Positions 21,670-46,200 of a DNA stretch of 64,000 nucleotides are shown piece after piece. The notes below the pieces were generated by a model that was not told where the DNA came from, searched no databases, and saw nothing but the letters and a program-made list of their open reading frames with translations. The position numbers were made by a program, and so were the translations under genes. The stretch lies in assembly GCA_947568835.1 (NCBI GenBank), contig OX387607.1:8069201-8133200 (forward strand), in the 5' to 3' direction. Each line of letters begins with the position of its first letter. Position 1 is the first letter of the stretch. Source of the DNA: Protonemura montana. Lineage: Eukaryota; Arthropoda; Insecta; Plecoptera; Nemouridae.

Positions 21670-23473
21670 CTAGGGCCAGGTAGTAGTTTTGGTTTGCAAC
21701 GCGTAGGTGAAGAGTTGCATGTTGAAGCTGACGGCGAAGGGCGCGGTGTTGTTCTTGGTGGGTGGCTGGTCGACGAAGGTGAGGGTGATGAGTGGCGACT
21801 GGCTGTCCGTCAGAAGGACCGCCGAGTTGCGTTCCAGACCGCACAGTCTGTAGGGATAAATAAGCAATAAAGGTAAATCTGGTTGGTGTGCATATAGCTC
21901 TCACAGTTAAATATTTCTTTAAATGAAGGAACCTTAGGTGTCAGTGCTTGAAACAAGACATCGTTATCAGTAAACATTTGATGCACGTTGAGGCGTAAGG
22001 TGTGGGGCGCTCGAAACGAAAATATATTTATTGTTCTAGTCTATATAATCTATTTTTCCGACGCTGAAAAGTCTTTAAAAGGTGCTGTGCTCATAAAGAT
22101 TGTGCGTTTACACATTGTGAAAAGTGTTCACTGTTAAAACTGTAAAATAATCTTAATGCAACTCACTGTTCCATCTTGAAGAGGTTACCGGCTTTGTGGC
22201 TAAATATTCCCAAGGACTGTTTATTGCAGTCGATCTTCGTGCCGTTGTCCTTCATCAACGTCACGTTCGATATCTGCAACGCGACCTTTAACCCTCCAGA
22301 CGGCCCATTGAACGTCAACACGCATCGCCCGGTCAGGTTTGACGCGAAGCTGAAGCTAAGGAGCAACTCGTCGCTCTCGCTTAGAGAAAACACGTTCGAG
22401 CAGTTGTTGTTGTCTAAGAAGACTCTGTCGAAGACGTCGTCGTTGGCAACGACCACGGAGACGTTGTTGACGGCGAGGGAATTGTTATAGATGGGCGCGA
22501 CCGTTGGCGGGAACGTCCTAGCGGGAGCTGGAGACGCCGTCGTCGTCGTTGTCCGTGTCGTGTTCATCGAGAACAATCTAAACGGTGGGAGGTTAGTTGT
22601 CGCTGAGGACGGCGAAGGGATGGATCCTGAAGGTAGCCAGAAGTCGATCGGTGATGAGGAGGGTTGATTTGGAAACTGGGGGTCTAGGTCGAATGGTAAA
22701 CTCGCCGCTGGAATCGCGGGCTGGAAGTCGAATATTGGCGCAAGATTGGCGGGCAAGTTTGCGGTTGTCGAAGCGCCTTGCGGTAGATTTGAAAAAATGT
22801 CGAGATTTTGATTTGGCTGGTTTGAAAATGACGATAAATCTTGTGGATTGTTTGGATATATCGGAGCTAGGTTTGCGGGCGTCTGGGCATACATGGGCGA
22901 CGAATAATCTGGTCCCTGTCCTGAGAAGACCGGTGGAACCATATTGATAGGCGGCCTGGCAAAGAAGTCTGGCCCGGTGTAGACTTGCTCGGAGGGGTTA
23001 AACGTCGGCTTGTAAGGCGGCCTACGGTGGTTGTTGTAATACGAATGACCAATGTACGACGGATACGACGGATACGAGTGGTCATCGTGCGACGAAGAAT
23101 CTGAGCTCACCGGGAAGTAGGAGGACACAGTTACCTCTGCCGTGCTGGGATTTCCGAGTCCCAGCGATTGGAATTGGTTGTCGTCTTTATACCCTTGAGA
23201 TTGGTAATCGTAGTTGTTGTCTTGATTCGGATCTTTCGGCCAGTAAGGACGGTAAGTATCCATCGGGGGCCGATTACTCGGCCGGTTATAGCCGCCTCTA
23301 GGGGGGCCACAGCACGGACGCGGGCTGCCTCTCGGCGGGCCAAAACTTTGCCGGTATCCTGGTGGTGGCACGGGACGGAAACCCCGATTCGGCGGCGGAG
23401 AGTGGTGATGGTGATCACACGAACACAACGGTGAAACCGAAAGAAGCGCAAAGCACAACAAAAGCTTCTCCAT
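21670..23473 (-). CDS. Secreted Pro/Asn/Tyr-rich protein with C-terminal CUB domain, 2 exons
   Basis: Exon 1 is 23473-22167 and exon 2 is 21847-21670, 1485 nt, 494 aa, with one phase-2 GT-AG intron. It starts with signal peptide MEKLLLCFALLSVSPLCSC, then a His/Pro/Gly stretch and a low-complexity region of about 300 residues rich in Pro, Tyr, Asn and Ser (repeats of ANLAPI type), a Thr run, and a CUB domain over roughly the last 130 residues (Cys at CSNVFSLSE, RCVLTF, IDCNKQ and LCGLE; many sequons). It could be an extracellular matrix or cuticle-associated protein, but that is inference. The intron falls at the same CUB position and phase as in the downstream gene at 19307-20843, pointing to tandem duplication followed by gain or loss of the N-terminal region. 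Confidence 0.82.
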
Positions 23474-24149: not shown

Positions 24150-27100
24150 ATGGCAGCAGGGACGCCGAGAGCGACGCAGCCACAACGTGTCACGAGGAAA
24201 CAAAAAGAGCTGGATCATGAAGAGAAGTTGAAGCTTCTCGACGACGAGCTCATGTCGTTTTACCAGTACTGTCAGCAGGTTGGTTTTTCGGAGGCTGAGA
24301 TGGACGTGATATGCGTACCACTCGTCTCGGCGCTCAGGAGGAATTACATGAGGAAGGCGCTGAAGATTGTAGGCGTGCTGATGGTGGTCGCTGCGTTTAT
24401 TTATGGGCTGACACAGATCACTATGGTTACTGTGCATCTGACGGCCGTTGGGAGGTTGCTTATGATCAAGGTAAGAATGGGGTGTGCGTTTTGGTTTAGT
24501 TGATTTATTATTTAAAAATTTGCACGGGGATTTTTCACTGGATATCTTCGCCTCTCTGGCCCAGGTGGGCCATCTGACTCAATGTTTCCAAATGGATAAT
24601 TTATAAAACAGTGCACTAGATCTAATTTTCGTAATTTTTCAATGAATTAATTTAGTTTGCGTGTTTATTTGTATGTTTGTTTGATTAAGTTTAGGGCAAC
24701 TGAATTGTATCTTTATGGGCATTATTACGGTAGAAATAGGATATGCTAATTTTTTCAAGGTTCAGTTTCAAAGACAACTGAAGGTGGATATGCAAATTGA
24801 AGTAACTGATTGGCTGTCCAGGGAGTCTTTAGCTGGTAGTTATAATTTTGACCGTAAATGGTATTAATGGCAAGTACTTTAAAATTTGTAGGGTGCTACA
24901 TAAAGTGAAGTAAAATACTTTCAGATAATTTTTCATTTTCCTAAAACTTTTGTGATTACCTAAATTATCAAGAAATCAAACTAAACTTTCAATGGAAAAA
25001 TTGGCCAAGAAATGCGCGCTTAAAATTTGAATGTTCCACGTACTAATTTAAAGAATTTTGACAGGCCCTGAAATTCAGGCCTAGAGTTTTCACATGTTTT
25101 TCAATGTTCTGTGCTTCAGATGTTACCGTTCTGGGACTGGACGTCGATGTTCTACGAGTCGTGTCTCGTGACCAACCCTTTCTACGGCGAGTACACCATC
25201 ACCGAAGAGGACTGCGTTGTAAGTTATGCACCTTTCGATCATTCACTCAGTGCTCTTTCTAGGTGCATGCAATTATCTGACTTGTAACGATTAAACGATG
25301 TCGTATTTCAATAATTTCTACTCTATATATTTGTAGTTGTAATTCACTGAACAATCTGCAATTAAGATGTTTTAGCTGTAAGAACCGTGCAAAGCAGACA
25401 TTATAGATTATAATGTACCATTTTTAGAGCAACCAATATTCACAGTATGCAGAAAAATGTCTGTTTATCTGTTTTCAAAATATGTTTATTAAGTTTCTAG
25501 TTGATCTTTGGAGCTTGAATCCCTCCTCTTTGACTTGGAAAGTTTCTTAAAAGCACGTTTTTGGTCATGCATGTGATTTTCAAACATTTTTATGTTTACC
25601 AAAATTTAAGATTGTCTCTAATATCCCTTGACCTTGCTATGAAATAAAGTCCAGTCTTTGAAAATCAAGGCTTTGGAAAATCCCTGAGAGAGTTTTCTTT
25701 GCTGGTTCCAGTCCTGTGAGGCCCTGGAGAACGTAGACCGTTTGAGCAACGTTGGTTACGACCATCTTCTCGACGGCTACCTCCATCGCAACGCCCCTCT
25801 CATCGTTGCCGATGCCATGGAGGCATGGTCTGTCATGAACACCGACGACTTCTGGTTTGACAACATTACACAGGTGAGAAGATCGATCAAGAGGAACTTA
25901 ACCTTTGGCCAGTAGCTTGCGAGATTTTACATGCACTTTATACGTTTCGTTACATTTAAAATGATTTTAATTTCTGCATAAAAACACTGTTTGGGATATC
26001 CTAGTTCATTCAGTGACAGAAGGTACTGTTTCAAATAAATTTGTGTCGAATGACCTAGAAGAAACAACTCCAAAAAGAGCGCTTCGATATGGTATCTTTT
26101 TTCATGGGGATTGATCATTCACAGCTGTTCATTAGGTACTAGATAATTTTATGGCAAATATTTAAATTAAACTAGTGTTATGATATCATGCATAACAATA
26201 TTTATGCATTAAAATGAGATGTTTTTGATATTATTTTGAAAATTTTGAGCTACCGTAATTATTTATGTTTTATATGCCTCTCTTATCTCTGGGTTTCACA
26301 TCTCTTAAGTTTGATGGAAACCATTTTAGTGGTAAAATATTTCACCACTTTGCTAACACAATTTTTTACGTGAAGAAAAACATAAATATATAATTGAAAA
26401 CATTAAAACCATCCGATTTCTCTGAAATTTTGTAAACCAGTCATAGCAAATATGCTTGAAACAACAAGATGTGACTGGCTAAATAAGTAAATAGTACGGC
26501 AACTCAAGCCGTCAGTTTTATCATTTTTCATAATTTTTCTTCGTTTGTTCGTTGTGATGTTGACTTAACTCGATTCCCTGGTTTCAGGTGTATTCAAAAG
26601 ATGACAAATTAGCCGACACGGTACCCTGTATTTTGACGACAAATCTTAGACCAGGGTCTTCTGATCTACACTCGTTCCTAAAACGCATCCAAAACCCAAA
26701 GGTCGACAAGTGGTTTGTCCACTGGTGAGTACCAGAAAACCAAAATTCCTTTTGAAAGGTCGAAATTTGTATGGGATTTTAAACGTTTGAGAATTTGCAG
26801 GCAAAACTGCGATATTCACGCCGTAAAGGCGCTCCGCAAGTTTTACCAGCGACCATACTTCCTCTCAAGCTCCGTGTCGCCGGCACATTTCAACTGGGTG
26901 CTAATGTCTTCTGACTACAACACGAAGGTCTACAAGAAGGTGAGGGCTTATTGACGATTGATTTTTATATGTGTACTGGCAGAAATCTGACAAAGTAAGT
27001 GGCTTAGAGAATCCAAGGGGTTTCTGAGGTGAGGGCCGTTTCTTTTTGATACTTTACTAGTGGATTTGACTCTCTGCTTACTGAGTTACTGCCAGTTGAG

Positions 27101-30100
27101 TTACACAAACATTCTTTGGTGTTTGGTTTTTGGTTATTTTGTTATAATAATAGTTTTACCACAGGTTTAACCAGCAGTGATTGTGAATGATTAATTATTT
27201 AAAAATATTATGCTTTTTGACCAGTTTGTTTTCAACTAGTTAATTTAATAAAATATAATAACATATTTTGGATTGGTTGAAAAGCACATGGTGATGACTA
27301 AAAGTTACTTGAACTTAAAACTTTGCTCAAACTTAAAACTGCAAAAAGCAGTATATATTTACTGAGTTAACAGCATTGTGCTTTGGGGAAATCAGAGAGT
27401 CAGTAAGCATTTCTTGGAACATAAAATCGTGTTCTTTAATTTTCAAAGTGTTGTTCTTTTTTGAAACTTGTGACACCATTTGACCGTACAAATGACTAGA
27501 AGTGTGAAATTAAAATATTAATTCTGACGGAATTGTACCCAAGATCTTTCTGAGAACTTTCGTTTCCTTGGCTATCGGATTTCTTCTAGGTAGCAACATA
27601 TTCATTGAGAATTTTTCCCACCTAAAAGACGATGAAAGTTGAAAATTCCTTGGTCGATGATCATAATAGTACTTGCAGGGCAGCTGAGGCCCCTTAGTTA
27701 GGACGCCTGCAGGTTAGGCAACGCATTGTGTTTATCAGCACGCAGGGAGTGCCTACGTGACAATCCCGCGAGATGTGGGGTACGAACCGCCCATGTGCTC
27801 AGTCCAGCCAAGATGGCCGCTTTGCGTTTGGTAAGCGACGGGTCGTGGAATAATAAATGGACGATTGCGCTATTAGTAGGTGCTCCGGTTGCGTTTGGGG
27901 CGGGTTATTGGTATTTCAGACATCGGTCAAAACGTTTGACCAAAAATCGGGACGCTCTCCTTGATAAAAAGTCATCCAACGACAAGAAGTCGGCCGCAGG
28001 CAAGGTCGACGATAACCAAACTCTTGTAGACACGCTATTTCAGAAGGCGTTATCTCAGAAGGACGAAGGTAATAAGTTGTTTAAATCTAGTGCCTATGAA
28101 GAAGCGATAACTTGTTACAATAAAGCAATAGAACTTTGTCCTGGAGAAAGAATACACGATTTGGCTACCTTTCACCAAAACAAAGCTGCAGCACACGAAC
28201 AACTCAAGCAGCACGACAAAGTGATCGAAGACTGTTCAGCGGCACTCACTCTTAATCCGAAGTATGTGAAAGCGTTACTGCGTCGTGCCAAGGCCTACGA
28301 AGTCACCAATGATTTAGTGAGCAGTCTCGAAGATCTCACTGCTGCCTGCATGCTAGAAGAATTTCAGAACCAGACATGTCTCTATTCAGCTGATCGAGTT
28401 TTAAAAGCCTTGGGCCGACAGCGAGCCAAGGAGGCAATGGCACATCGGGAGCCTGCCCTTCCATCAAAGTACTTCATTCGCACATACTTTGCATCGTTCT
28501 CTCGGGACCCACTCGGACAAAGCACTGACTCTGAAAGCGATGTGCCAGAAGCTGATCTCAAGGGTTACGCTCGAGCACGTCAACTATTCAAGGCACAAAA
28601 GTATGAAGAAGTGGTGGCAGCATGCACAGAAGAGATCGAAGCACCAGGTAACGCTGCAGACGACGCCCTGGTGCTGAGAGGAACTTTCCGACTCCTCACT
28701 GGTGACCACACTGGGGCTTATGAGGATCTGAACACCGTCATCAATAAGGAGGGCGTCGCTCCTGGGCTTCGAGTCAATGCTCTGATCAAGCGAGCATCGC
28801 TCAGCATGCAGCTGGAGAAACCGGAAGACAGCTTAGAAGACTTTCGATTGGCTGCCGAATGTGATCCTGAAAACCCTGACGTTTACCACCACCAAGGTCA
28901 AGTTCATCTTCTCTTGGAGAAGATTCCGGAAGCTATGGCCGTTTTTGAACGTGCTGTTCAGCTAAACCCAACGTTTCCAATTGCGTATGTTCAGAAGATA
29001 TATACCGAGTACCGCCACGCTTTCACCACCCGCGACATGGATAAGCTGCAGAAGGTCCTAGCCGCATTTGGCGAGGCAATCGAAAAGTTTCCCGACTGCT
29101 GCGAGTGCTACACACTGTTTGCTCAGGTGCTGAGCGACCAGGGAGACTACGAGGAAGCTGACGTACTTTTCAAGAAGGCGGCGATGATCGAGCCAGAGAA
29201 CGCAACAATATTCGTGCATCGCGCCGTTGTCACACTGCAGTCAAGCGGGGACTTCGTCAAAGCCACCGAGTTGATACGACAGGCGATCTCCGTCGATGGC
29301 AAGTGCGAGTTTGCACTCGAGACTCTTGGCACGCTCGAGGTGCAGCAAGGCAATCTGGAAGGCGCTGTCGAGCTCTTCGAGCGCGCCATCCCCTTGGCCA
29401 AGACTGAGGTGGAGTGCGCTCATTTATACTCGCTACGCGATGCATCGCTGACGCAGGCGCGAGTGGCTGGGCGGATGGGACTAACCGTCAACGGGAAGAA
29501 CACCGCCGTTTAAGGTTCTAGCTGGCGGAGGCCTGTTGTAGCTGTGTTGTAAGTGCGCACTAATCTCGGTAACACAGTGGCCAAGATGTGATTGTAAATA
29601 GCTGTAATCAGCTACTTATGCCTCTAGTGATCTTTTTATCCCTTCCTGATATAGATCTCCCTAGTAATGGGACTAGGCAAATATGATAAATTTAGGTTCA
29701 TCTATTTGATTATATTTTTTTCAATTTATTGGTCTTCGAAATTCTTTTATGACCTAACTGCCTCAGTAGGTTGTATGTTGTGGTTTTTATTTTGCGTGTG
29801 GGTATGTCCAGGTTTGCATTGAAATCAACGAGCAAGTGTTGATTCTCTAGTGTGGCAATTACAGACCTGCTAACCGCAAGTGAAATCATGCAGCAAGTGT
29901 GAAGAATTATCACTAATTAATGTTGCGAGGAATTGATTAGTGGATGCATATCTAGATTATCCAGTGACTTTCTGGTGAAGACTTCTGCATTTATAAGTCT
30001 CAAATTTGATCTAACTTAGAGATGAACATTTTTTCTTTGTGATAAAGCAAAATTGATAGTCATTTGCAAAGTAATATGTGGTTTGTTATATTATGTAAAA

Positions 30101-31381
30101 TAATTACACCCTGTGTAATTAGTTTGATCTATAAATGTCAAATAGGCATCACATTAAAAAAAAAAACTAACTTGACTGATAAAATACTATTCAATCTTAT
30201 TGAGATGGTTCCTATCCTTTCTTTTCACTGGTTTTTTAAGCAATTTATGATTTTTTGTGTGCAAGTGTAAAAAAAAAAGCTTGAAACTTAATGCTAGGTC
30301 CTCATAACTTACGAGGAAAGTGGAAAAAAATCTAAAGCAACATGTTGACTGCTGTTAGTTGATAGGTAACTTTTTTACGTATGGTGTTAACACCCACGAT
30401 ACCTCGTTAAAATCAAAGATTACCATGAACTCTCCATGCAGTTAATGTACATTTATCACTTATTACTATCATCATGCAATAATAAAATAATGCCAAGACA
30501 AGAACATAAGTTTAATCTTGGAGAAAGGAATAGTTTCTCCCAAACCACTCTTTTCTCTAAGGTTTAATGTTAAAGGAATATGACTAGCCATTTATGCAGC
30601 ATCACATCTTATGCTAAACTATGTTAATTCATGTGGCCATTCTCCTGGCAAACTTTCCATCCTCTTGAAGGTAGTCCAGTGAACGATGGACTGTGTTTTT
30701 CTCTGCTAGGTGGAGCTGGATTCGGGACTAATCATGCTTGCCCAGCTTCGTGGGTCCACATCGTTGAAGCTTACTCCGCACAACCCCTGCAACTCGTCTT
30801 GTCCAGAGCTCCGTGCAGAACTGCATGAAGGGGAGATGCGTGAGTCCTTGCGCTAGTTCTTCGTACTCGAGCTGCATGTTTGTGACCATACTGACAAGTT
30901 TAGCTGCAACCGCTGATACAGCTTCTCTTTAGGGAGAAAATAAATTAAATAACCCAGTATCTGAAAGTGGATACACAGAGTAAATTAAAGGTGCGTGGGC
31001 AAAAGAACGGTAAAAGATTTGAGCAACGTAAAGCATTTTTAAGGTAACCTATTTATACCTTCATCAGTTGATGAATGTTTTTGTTTTGTTTAAGGCTTGG
31101 TCATATTTCAAAACACTTATTTATTTCTGTGTCCTGGCCTGCTGACATGGGATTGGATAGGGCTAGGATATTATTGAACTGTGATAAAAAAAAGCATTCA
31201 ACAAATATCAACATTTAGTAAAATTGAGCTTAAACCATAAGTCGAATTTCAACAATAATTTCCACTTTTGTTCCCAGTGGTGTTTACCAACTACCTCTGG
31301 ACATTCGAGTATCTTCCTGGCCGCAACTTGGACAATGTTGCAATTCTCACCGAGACAGTCTGGGAAGAGAACTCTTCATAA
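24150..31381 (+). CDS. Type II membrane protein with divergent JmjC/cupin-like fold, 7 exons, host of nested TOMM70
   Basis: Exons: 24150-24470, 25120-25218, 25712-25873, 26588-26724, 26801-26939, 30710-30839, 31278-31381; 1092 nt, 363 aa, all junctions GT-AG and in phase. A basic cytosolic N-terminus is followed by one membrane segment at about residues 70-90, so the bulk is probably lumenal or extracellular. The order APLIVADAMEAW, SPAHFNWVLMSS, LIMLAQLRG, ELHEGEMLVFTN and NVAILTE recalls cupin_8/JmjC proteins. However, the usual H-x-D is H269-F-N271 and the distal His is not visible, so Fe/2-oxoglutarate activity is doubtful. I know this as an unnamed conserved invertebrate protein; no function is claimed. 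Intron 5 (26940-30709) contains TOMM70 on the same strand. Exon structure is sure; the fold call is inference. Confidence 0.85.
27813..29513 (+). CDS. TOMM70: TOMM70 mitochondrial import receptor, intronless, nested in an intron
   Basis: A single open frame of 566 aa starting at an ATG in good context (CCAAGATGG); an upstream in-frame Met at 27726 only adds a Cys/Arg-rich leader. Residues about 14-34 (WTIALLVGAPVAFGAGYWYF) form the N-terminal outer-membrane anchor. A linker with Lys/Asp runs follows, then TPR repeats: the first cluster (KDEGNKLFKSSAYEEAITCY, NKAAAHEQL, YVKALLRRAKAYE) has the residues of the Hsp70/Hsp90-binding clamp, and more TPRs fill the C-terminal two thirds. Length is close to animal TOMM70 (about 600 aa). 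It docks chaperone-bound precursors, such as carriers, for the TOM complex. The gene lies inside intron 5 of the 24150-31381 gene on the same strand. Absence of introns and an A11 run at 30156-30166 fit an old retrocopy that remains intact. An AATAAA is at 30481. Confidence 0.95.
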   Translation: MAALRLVSDGSWNNKWTIALLVGAPVAFGAGYWYFRHRSKRLTKNRDALLDKKSSNDKKSAAGKVDDNQTLVDTLFQKALSQKDEGNKLFKSSAYEEAITCYNKAIELCPGERIHDLATFHQNKAAAHEQLKQHDKVIEDCSAALTLNPKYVKALLRRAKAYEVTNDLVSSLEDLTAACMLEEFQNQTCLYSADRVLKALGRQRAKEAMAHREPALPSKYFIRTYFASFSRDPLGQSTDSESDVPEADLKGYARARQLFKAQKYEEVVAACTEEIEAPGNAADDALVLRGTFRLLTGDHTGAYEDLNTVINKEGVAPGLRVNALIKRASLSMQLEKPEDSLEDFRLAAECDPENPDVYHHQGQVHLLLEKIPEAMAVFERAVQLNPTFPIAYVQKIYTEYRHAFTTRDMDKLQKVLAAFGEAIEKFPDCCECYTLFAQVLSDQGDYEEADVLFKKAAMIEPENATIFVHRAVVTLQSSGDFVKATELIRQAISVDGKCEFALETLGTLEVQQGNLEGAVELFERAIPLAKTEVECAHLYSLRDASLTQARVAGRMGLTVNGKNTAV

Positions 31382-35606: not shown

Positions 35607-35679
35607 GTCCAAGTAGCTCAATTGGTTAGAGCAACACCTGCAACAGGTGGAAATCGGGGCTTGATTCCCCGTTTAGGCA
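35607..35679 (+). tRNA. Degenerate tRNA-like gene (best cloverleaf of the cluster)
   Basis: Acceptor GTCCAAG pairs with TTTAGGC at 6 of 7 positions counting wobble. D stem GCTC/GAGC is perfect with loop AATTGGTTA. T arm CGGGG-CTTGATT-CCCCG is perfect. The anticodon arm is abnormal: CACC/GGTG with loop TGCAACA lacks U33, and the same bases also form a tighter CACCTG/CAGGTG hairpin. No identity is assigned. It is more likely a tRNA pseudogene or SINE head than a working tRNA. Confidence 0.35.
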
Positions 35680-43200: not shown

Positions 43201-46200
43201 AGGCTGACTACCTCGCCGTCGCTCAGAAGCGCCACCAGGTGGCTCGGCAGTCCAGTTAGCGCCAACCCGAGCAGGGGTGAGAGCGCGGAGCCCGACGTCA
43301 GTGTGCAAAGCAAGTACTCGGCGTGGCTGCGTGTCGACAGCAGCTCTGACTCTGCATGGACGAAACGGCATCGGATTTGATATGCAAATATTCGTAGTTG
43401 TTATGTTATTAATATTCATTTATTTATTATGTTAACTAATTGATAAGTTTTACATTTACCTTAACCTATGTTATGGAACTTTACATCAATGTCGCAGTGT
43501 AATGAAACATGTACAAGTCATTATGTAATGAGTGATATCTTCATTTATACATATGACCAACTGCACAAGCTAATGAGTAATGATTCTATTACTTTTCTTC
43601 AAAGTAGATAATTTGTTTTTAATTATTTTTTATAATTATTAACATTAGTGGAGATCTCTTTTCACCTTTGGAGCTTTGCAAATTTTTACATAGGTTGTGC
43701 TCCAAAACATACGGTTACAGAACAGATCTAGAAATATTTTTCTACTTGAACAGTTTCAGTAAAGACAACCACCCTCGCACATCTATCGACATGCTTCTTG
43801 AGACTGAGGGCCCCGCGTGAGACTCACCTTCCATTTGATCGTCTTCAATATACGACTCGAGTTTCTGTATTATTGGCAGGGAGATGGCGTGTACGCCGGT
43901 GTCATGACTACAGAAGTACCTGCGTATGGAACAGATCAGAAAGTTGTTCAAGTAATGATATTCTTAACTAAATGTGTACACTACATGTTATTATTATTTG
44001 TGGTATTTAACGACGCACTGTTTTGACAACTGGCCCTGCGGCACTGATCTAATGGCGTCGGTGAATAAGTGGATGATGATGAGGATGATGAGGATGATGA
44101 TGAACCTAACCTAGCCTAGATGGGAGGAGGGGAAACCCGGTGCCGGCACGTAGCCTACTCCTGTCGAAGAGCACCAAGGGGACCACCGGCTTCACGTCCC
44201 TTCCGAAGGACGGTACAATTCGAACAGCAGGATTCTTCCACAAATCCATGCTGTTGAGAGGTTGATAAGCTAGGCAAATGAAGTTGCTGTACTAACTTTC
44301 ATCCCTTCACCCTCTCTCCTGGACAGAACTGGTCATGTGTATAATGGTCACCCATTCAATACCCGACTCAGCGCAGTGTTGCTTAACTTCGGTGATCTCA
44401 CGAGAACCGGTGTTTCCAACACGCCAAAATGTTCGGTCACTACATGTTCAGTACGGTAGGTTAGGTTAGGAAAATGAGTTGGAAAATGAGAGGGGCTGCC
44501 GGGGTTCAAAATGCATGAACGAATGATACTACATGAAGGATCGGTGCATGTATGTACAATAACAGTATTGATACATAGAAGAGTAACGTGAAACGGCTGT
44601 CATATGTTTCGTATAAAATTGGCAGGATGTTGCCCATTAGCAAGTACCAAATTGTCCGCTTGGAGTATTGACAAAAATGCCAGACAAAGTTAACAAGAAA
44701 AATAAAGATCCCAATAATTTTGATGCATTATTTGTGATGCAATGATGTGCAGGTAACTTGAATTGCAATGAATTGTCGGTAATGAATGAATTGCAGGTAA
44801 CTTTATTCCATTTGGAAATCTATGCACAATTACCACACAAAAGACATCCCTTCCTATATCTCTTAGACAGAGCAAATATCCACTATCTGTTCCTGTGGGT
44901 AAGATTCTAGAGTGTACCTGTCGTCGGAGGAGAAGTCGTGATGGAGGTAGATCGGACACGTTACAGAGCTCCCGTCGTCGGCACGCAGCGACAGACCCAG
45001 CTCCAACTCAACCGACTCGAAGACGTAGAGAGCTGTGTCACGGACATCGTCCTCTCCTTCCTGAATGTACCATGCATTTTGTTGAGCAAGACTAGGACAA
45101 CGTAGTTGCATTTGAGGAAGGTATAATGGTGCAGAGCATTGAGCAGCACCACATTTTCTTGCCCGTTTAATATTGTAGTAGTTTAGAAGTTTTGAAAGCT
45201 CACAGTTGGAAACATAAGTAAGCATTCAGGACATCAGGGAGATATTTTCAAACTTTTTATCTTCTTGATCTTCTCGATTTCTAGCTCAAATTTAATTTAT
45301 GAGTTCATTTGTTGTGTTCAATGACAACAGGCTCTGTGGCACTGGTCTAATGGCGTCAGTGAATGAGTGTTTGATGTTGAGGATGATGATAAACCAAACC
45401 TAGCCTAGAAGGGAGCAGGAAACACAGTGCAAGGACGTTACCTTCTTCTGTCAGATAGCACCAAGGGGAACACTGGCTTAACGGAACTTCAGAAGGACTG
45501 TACAATGCAAAAAATAGAATTCCTTCTCAAATCCATGCTGTCGAGAGGTTGATAAGCACGGCCAACGAAGTTGATAAACTAACTTTCATCCCTGCAACCT
45601 CTCTTCCAAACAGAACGATAACTCTGAGACTAGGGGACAATAAAAGGCTATTACTAAAAAAACGCACTTAATTTGGGGCACTTCGTCAATTTTTGAGCAG
45701 CTTGTGGATAGGCAGTTTTGAATGTTGAAATAAGATCTTCTGTGCTTATAGTCTCTATGCAAAAGAAACAATTCAGAACTTGCAGACCTATGCATTGAGC
45801 AGTGCATGGGTTTGGGTTTTACAAAAACCCATTTCAAAAACCCAAAAACACTTGGGTTTTTGAAATCTTATTTGAACTGCAAACGCATGCAATGCGGGGG
45901 GGGGGGGGGGGGGGGGGGGTATTTTATTATTATGAACACTTCTTCCGTCAATTTTTGACACAGAGGTAGTGTTCATAATAATAAAATACTTTTGGGTTGT
46001 TGGCAATAGCTAGTCAAGCACAGAGAGAAAATCAATGTATTAATAGAAAGCTATCCAAATACATGGTTGACCATTAGGATCTAGCGTACTAATCTATATT
46101 ATAAAATAAATTTCTTATTAAAATAGATTTTCTAGATGAAGTGCATTTCCTAAATGAAATGGGTAGCATCGTTCATACCAGCAACGAATCTTCTACGCCC

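Follow-up and report, generated by a model that had tools for sequence, protein, structure and literature searches.

Mcts2 of the mouse lies in the same orientation as H13. In this arrangement, one of the closest described, Mcts2 is a retrogene in the fourth intron of H13 whose ancestral gene lies elsewhere; it is imprinted, has a CpG-island promoter, and its transcription drives intronic polyadenylation of the host (PMC13309782). Drosophila and Anopheles likewise have functional retrogenes, described as retained intronless copies with an intron-bearing parent elsewhere, and a large fraction of those in Drosophila are reported to be testis-expressed (PMC2413143, PMC9222922). In yeast, one genome holds two TOM70-type receptors, Tom70 and Tom71, which are thought to stem from whole-genome duplication (PMC7583919).

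We analyzed a 64,000-nucleotide stretch of DNA (C5:8069201-8133200, here called the window) from a 258-Mb genome of 34 contigs, in which an intronless TOM70 gene lies within an intron of another gene, which we call the host gene. This locus resembles Mcts2/H13 in having a retrogene-like copy in a host intron, an ancestral-type gene elsewhere, and poly(A) signals in the host intron, whereas Mcts2 is mammalian and imprinted and has a CpG-island promoter (PMC13309782). It shares with the insect retrogenes the retained intronless copy and the intron-bearing relative (PMC2413143, PMC9222922), and with yeast the presence of two TOM70-type receptors in one genome, although the yeast pair is attributed to whole-genome duplication and not to retroposition (PMC7583919). 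We consider it very likely that the nested open reading frame is an old but functional TOM70 retrogene, inserted in the sense direction into a pre-existing intron and encoding a second import receptor. Functional nested retrogenes are a known kind of gene; the novelty lies in this instance, in which a probable arthropod has a second TOM70 under constraint. Among the papers listed under the names Tom70 and TOMM70, none showed a TOM70 retrogene, which does not prove that none has been published. Should both copies be expressed, this would be an animal with two TOM70 receptors arisen by retroposition, and a natural test of promoter gain by a retrogene in a busy intron and of import-receptor specialization; if they are not both expressed, it is one more nested retrogene. 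The features of the locus, in window coordinates, are as follows.

24150-24470, 25120-25218, 25712-25873, 26588-26724, and 26801-26939, forward strand: host exons 1 to 5 (splice model); residues 24-278 align with the paralogue on contig C11
26940-30709, forward strand: host intron 5, 3,770 bp, phase 0; its counterparts in paralogues measure 255 bp (contig C16) and 166 bp (contig C11)
27799-27804, forward strand: initiator-like TCAGTC, which would give a 12-nt 5'UTR; a weak motif, spotted post hoc
27809-27820, forward strand: TISU/YY1-like context CAAGATGGCCGC of the start codon, differing from the consensus at one base
27813-29513, forward strand: nested intronless TOM70, 566 amino acids plus stop, with an anchor-like N-terminal segment and clamp-type TPRs
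29514-30486, forward strand: probable 3'UTR region of the nested TOM70, with hexamers ATTAAA (30153) and AATAAA (30481)
30710-30839 and 31278-31381, forward strand: host exons 6 and 7 including the stop (splice model); the 130-nt exon 6 and exon 7 also occur in the C11 paralogue

The splice model of the host gene (24150-31381, forward strand) has seven exons that join in phase into 363 codons plus a stop, with GT-AG borders at all six introns. An earlier note on this DNA had described a seven-exon gene joined in phase from 26939 to 30710, with a full intronless TOMM70 of 566 amino acids on the same strand in between, and both descriptions held. The open reading frame at 27813-29513 has no internal stop, and residues 15-557 of its product match residues 38-603 of human TOM70 (phmmer E 1.4e-145). 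Both the gene models and the host paralogues place it wholly within a single host intron.

Against Pfam, the nested protein matched TPR families, and its repeat array is homologous to TOM70 almost from end to end; the N-terminal membrane anchor was assigned from the alignment only. The motifs KDEGN at residue 83, QNKAAA at 122, and VKALLRRAKA at 152 align with KNKGN, QNRAAA, and VKALFRRAKA in the human protein. These are carboxylate-clamp motifs of TPR 1 to 3, which we take to contain the binding residues. Given the predicted anchor, the TPR array, and the clamp motifs, the nested gene most likely encodes a TOM70-type import receptor, which would function at the mitochondrion. Matches to the TOM20 family were found five times at four places (C1:31301680-31302334, C2:19077255, C1:8806250, and C14:7589112); TOM20 may also be multi-copy in this genome.

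Two whole-genome protein searches found one other full-length TOM70, at C16:12544007-12546988. Six GT-AG introns divide its coding sequence into seven exons, and its 582-aa frame is intact. The remaining matches (4 of 12 in one search and 7 of 15 in the other) had 29-40% identity and covered only residues 77-231 of either query, in the N-terminal TPR region, a pattern that would be expected of other TPR proteins. A possible acceptor (tttcag) precedes the start of the C16 gene, so a further intron in its 5'UTR is possible. The earlier note had called for a genome-wide check for a second, intron-containing TOMM70 and had suggested that the nested gene, as a retroposed copy, either replaced or supplements the ancestral one. 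With an intact intron-bearing TOM70 on C16, the nested copy supplements it, and replacement can be set aside.

The two copies are identical at 308 of 561 aligned residues (54.9%), and their identities to human TOM70 are similar (243/543, or 44.8%, for the nested copy and 255/544, or 46.9%, for the C16 copy). Among sites at which exactly two of the three proteins agree, the nested and C16 copies agree at 101, C16 and human at 53, and nested and human at 41. The counts of 53 and 41 indicate no significant difference in rate between the copies relative to human (binomial p 0.26). The simplest reading of these three unrooted sequences, from which the age of the nested copy is judged, is that the duplication came after the split from the vertebrate lineage. 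In a fragment search for yeast Tom70/71 outgroup alignments, the matches listed comprised only four human TOM70 entries and SPAG1, which leaves the duplication without a root. Comparing 561 codon pairs, we found identities of 65.1, 74.9, and 34.9% at the three codon positions; the NG86 dN was 0.388, and the dS estimate returned -1, which we took as saturation. Together with the intact frame, the codon-position identities point to purifying selection, and both copies look constrained as coding sequences. The nested TOM70 has a third-position GC content of 0.536, compared with 0.365 for the C16 TOM70 and 0.659 for the host gene. Drosophila retrogenes are often testis-expressed (PMC2413143, PMC9222922), whereas the pair described here is known from sequence and has no significant rate difference.

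An intronless copy in one place and an intron-bearing, parent-like gene in another (C16) is the configuration of a retrogene. All six C16 introns are missing from the nested copy, and the copy lies on a different contig, within an unrelated gene whose intron is older than the copy; from these two observations we infer retroposition, in agreement with the earlier note. The mRNA of an intron-bearing TOM70, either the present C16 copy or its ancestor, would have been reverse-transcribed, and the cDNA would have been inserted in the sense direction into a cupin/JmjC-like gene, within its existing phase-0 intron 5 and without damage to the host splice sites. The nested gene would now supply the mitochondrial outer membrane with a second import receptor, anchored at its N-terminus and docking chaperones through a TPR clamp, and would be under purifying selection.

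The absence of introns is the sole hallmark of retroposition found at the locus. The longest word common to the two flanks (27313-27812 and 29514-30709) is 9 nt, giving no sign of a target-site duplication: 200 shuffles in 2-base blocks gave longest words of 7 to 15 nt, with 9 the most frequent. Repeats sought inside each flank did not exceed chance, and a scan of this within-flank kind cannot reveal a target-site duplication. A-runs occur 3' of the nested gene, at 30156 and 30269, and are unproven as poly(A) relics. Loss of both a poly(A) relic and a target-site duplication is expected at this age. As for an insertion carried by a repeat, both intron flanks matched only themselves genome-wide; the search passes over very common words, and a repeat is therefore possible.

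This scarcity of traces leaves some room for a different history, in which a TOM70 duplicate landed at the DNA level with its introns and then lost them, or in which the C16 gene gained its introns after the duplication. Copies with 55% identity have had time enough for many changes. This history nevertheless requires that six introns were lost, singly or together, or that six were gained, and the same word-skipping search found no second genomic copy of the flanks; we regard it as unlikely.

Returning to the retrogene reading, the nested TOM70 would most likely be transcribed from a short promoter directly before its ATG and would terminate within the same intron, and host transcripts would remove the entire 3.8 kb by splicing. 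The 123 nt before the ATG have 57.7% GC, whereas intron sequence farther upstream has 32.5-35.4%. This stretch includes TCAGTC at 27799-27804, which resembles the arthropod initiator consensus. The TISU consensus is SAASATGGCGGC around the ATG, with transcription starting no more than about 30 nt away. The TISU pattern, relaxed after we had seen the site, matched once in 64 kb, where 0.06 matches were expected, and 6 of 100 shuffles contained a match. No TISU-like context was present at the start of the C16 TOM70. TISU was described from human promoters, for mRNAs whose 5'UTRs are very short, and genes with mitochondrial functions are among those in which it is enriched; the main text of that paper makes no mention of Drosophila (PMC2518114). 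In this one gene, with motifs that were noticed before testing, the initiator/TISU-like arrangement and the GC-rich stretch are only a suggestion of a promoter of its own. We propose only tentatively that the retrocopy made its own minimal start, from an initiator and, 12 nt on, a TISU-like ATG, so that a second receptor is made independently from within a working host intron and shares import work with the C16 copy.

At the other end, the hexamers ATTAAA at 30153 and AATAAA at 30481 could mark the ends of the nested transcript. Upstream of the nested gene, the intron also contains AATAAA at 27247 and ATTAAA at 27509, which could shorten the host transcript by analogy with H13/Mcts2. Because the nested TOM70 is on the same strand as its host, it might instead be transcribed from the host promoter only, in retained-intron or read-through RNA, with no start of its own. 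The GC-rich 123 nt and the initiator/TISU-like arrangement before the ATG suggest otherwise, and we consider such dependence on the host promoter improbable.

That the intron preceded the nested gene is indicated by the paralogues of the host. Searched against the whole genome, the host protein had nine matches, of which seven fell on its own gene and two on paralogous places, one on contig C11 (27% identity, E 3.2e-6) and one on contig C16 near 15.0 Mb (38%, E 1.6e-4). In the C11 paralogue (L035:3346-5140), an uninterrupted frame aligns with host residues 24-278 (22.7% identity, E 3e-10, local tblastn) and ends at a phase-0 GTAAGT donor; 166 bp on is a 130-nt exon, the length of host exon 6, and a last exon ending in SSEYG follows 369 bp after it. 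Two joins passed our filter for the C11 exon 6; we chose the one with a GTAAGA donor, which gives 130 nt, over the alternative with a GTGTCG donor 21 nt earlier. In the C16 paralogue (L050), one segment resembles exon 5 (39% identity over 46 residues, E 3e-9) and another exon 6 (39% over 33, E 0.005); their in-phase join over an intron of 255 bp was the sole one to pass the filter. A single motif scan of this stretch gave no exon-7 match, and support for exon 7 comes from C11 alone. The junction of exons 5 and 6 reads MH/VD or MH/ID in the paralogues and KK/VE in the host. The paralogue introns, at 255 and 166 bp, are too short for a TOM70-sized gene, and intron 5 is common to the host and both paralogues; it is thus old, and the TOM70 gene entered an intron that already existed. 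The age of the intron is judged by comparison with these paralogues.

The case that the earlier note had named against itself, in which the exons at 30710 and 31278 come from another gene and TOM70 lies between two genes rather than nested in one, draws on the exon 5 to exon 6 join being known from genomic sequence alone, and we rejected it as extremely improbable, since the seven exons join in phase, exon 6 follows exon 5 in both paralogues across an intron that matches in place and phase, and the C11 paralogue also has the 130-nt exon 6 and exon 7.

The host protein matched no Pfam family at E up to 10, and three PDB sequences matched it, none usable (best E 0.73); it has, by eye, a hydrophobic segment close to the N-terminus. 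We judged the host gene to be of a cupin/JmjC-like family, an assignment made entirely through its paralogues by way of the weak Cupin_8 match of the C11 copy (E 0.015, 15.7 bits, below the cut-off of 27.4). The paralogues carry H-I-D and H-V-D, forms of an HxD motif that we take to be the likely iron-binding one; it is interrupted by the intron after the H, and the host reads K-V-E at the same place. The host gene may, on this reading of its residues, be a catalytically dead member of the family.

Elsewhere in the window, a proline-rich 436-aa ORF in a single frame lies at 22163-23473 on the reverse strand; its start resembles a signal peptide by eye, and it had no Pfam match at E up to 10. 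Rfam matched a 5S rRNA (53.1 bits) at 44322-44437 on the reverse strand and a tRNA (37.2 bits) at 35607-35679 on the forward strand, whereas ARAGORN found no tRNA.

Translation with the invertebrate code works well for the mitochondrial contig of the assembly (C34, 15,885 bp). Gene names read from its translations place COX1, COX2, ATP6, COX3, NAD3, NAD2, NAD6, and CYTB on one strand and NAD5, NAD4, NAD4L, and NAD1 on the other, which we take to be the arthropod ground pattern. COX1 had seven matches in the genome. One on the nuclear contig C4 equals the C34 match in score and in the span of the model matched, and another C4 match, though long, is incomplete (5760925-5762262 and 5776811-5777755; L029 and L031). 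Either mitochondrial DNA was recently copied into the nuclear genome, or the assembly is at fault there.
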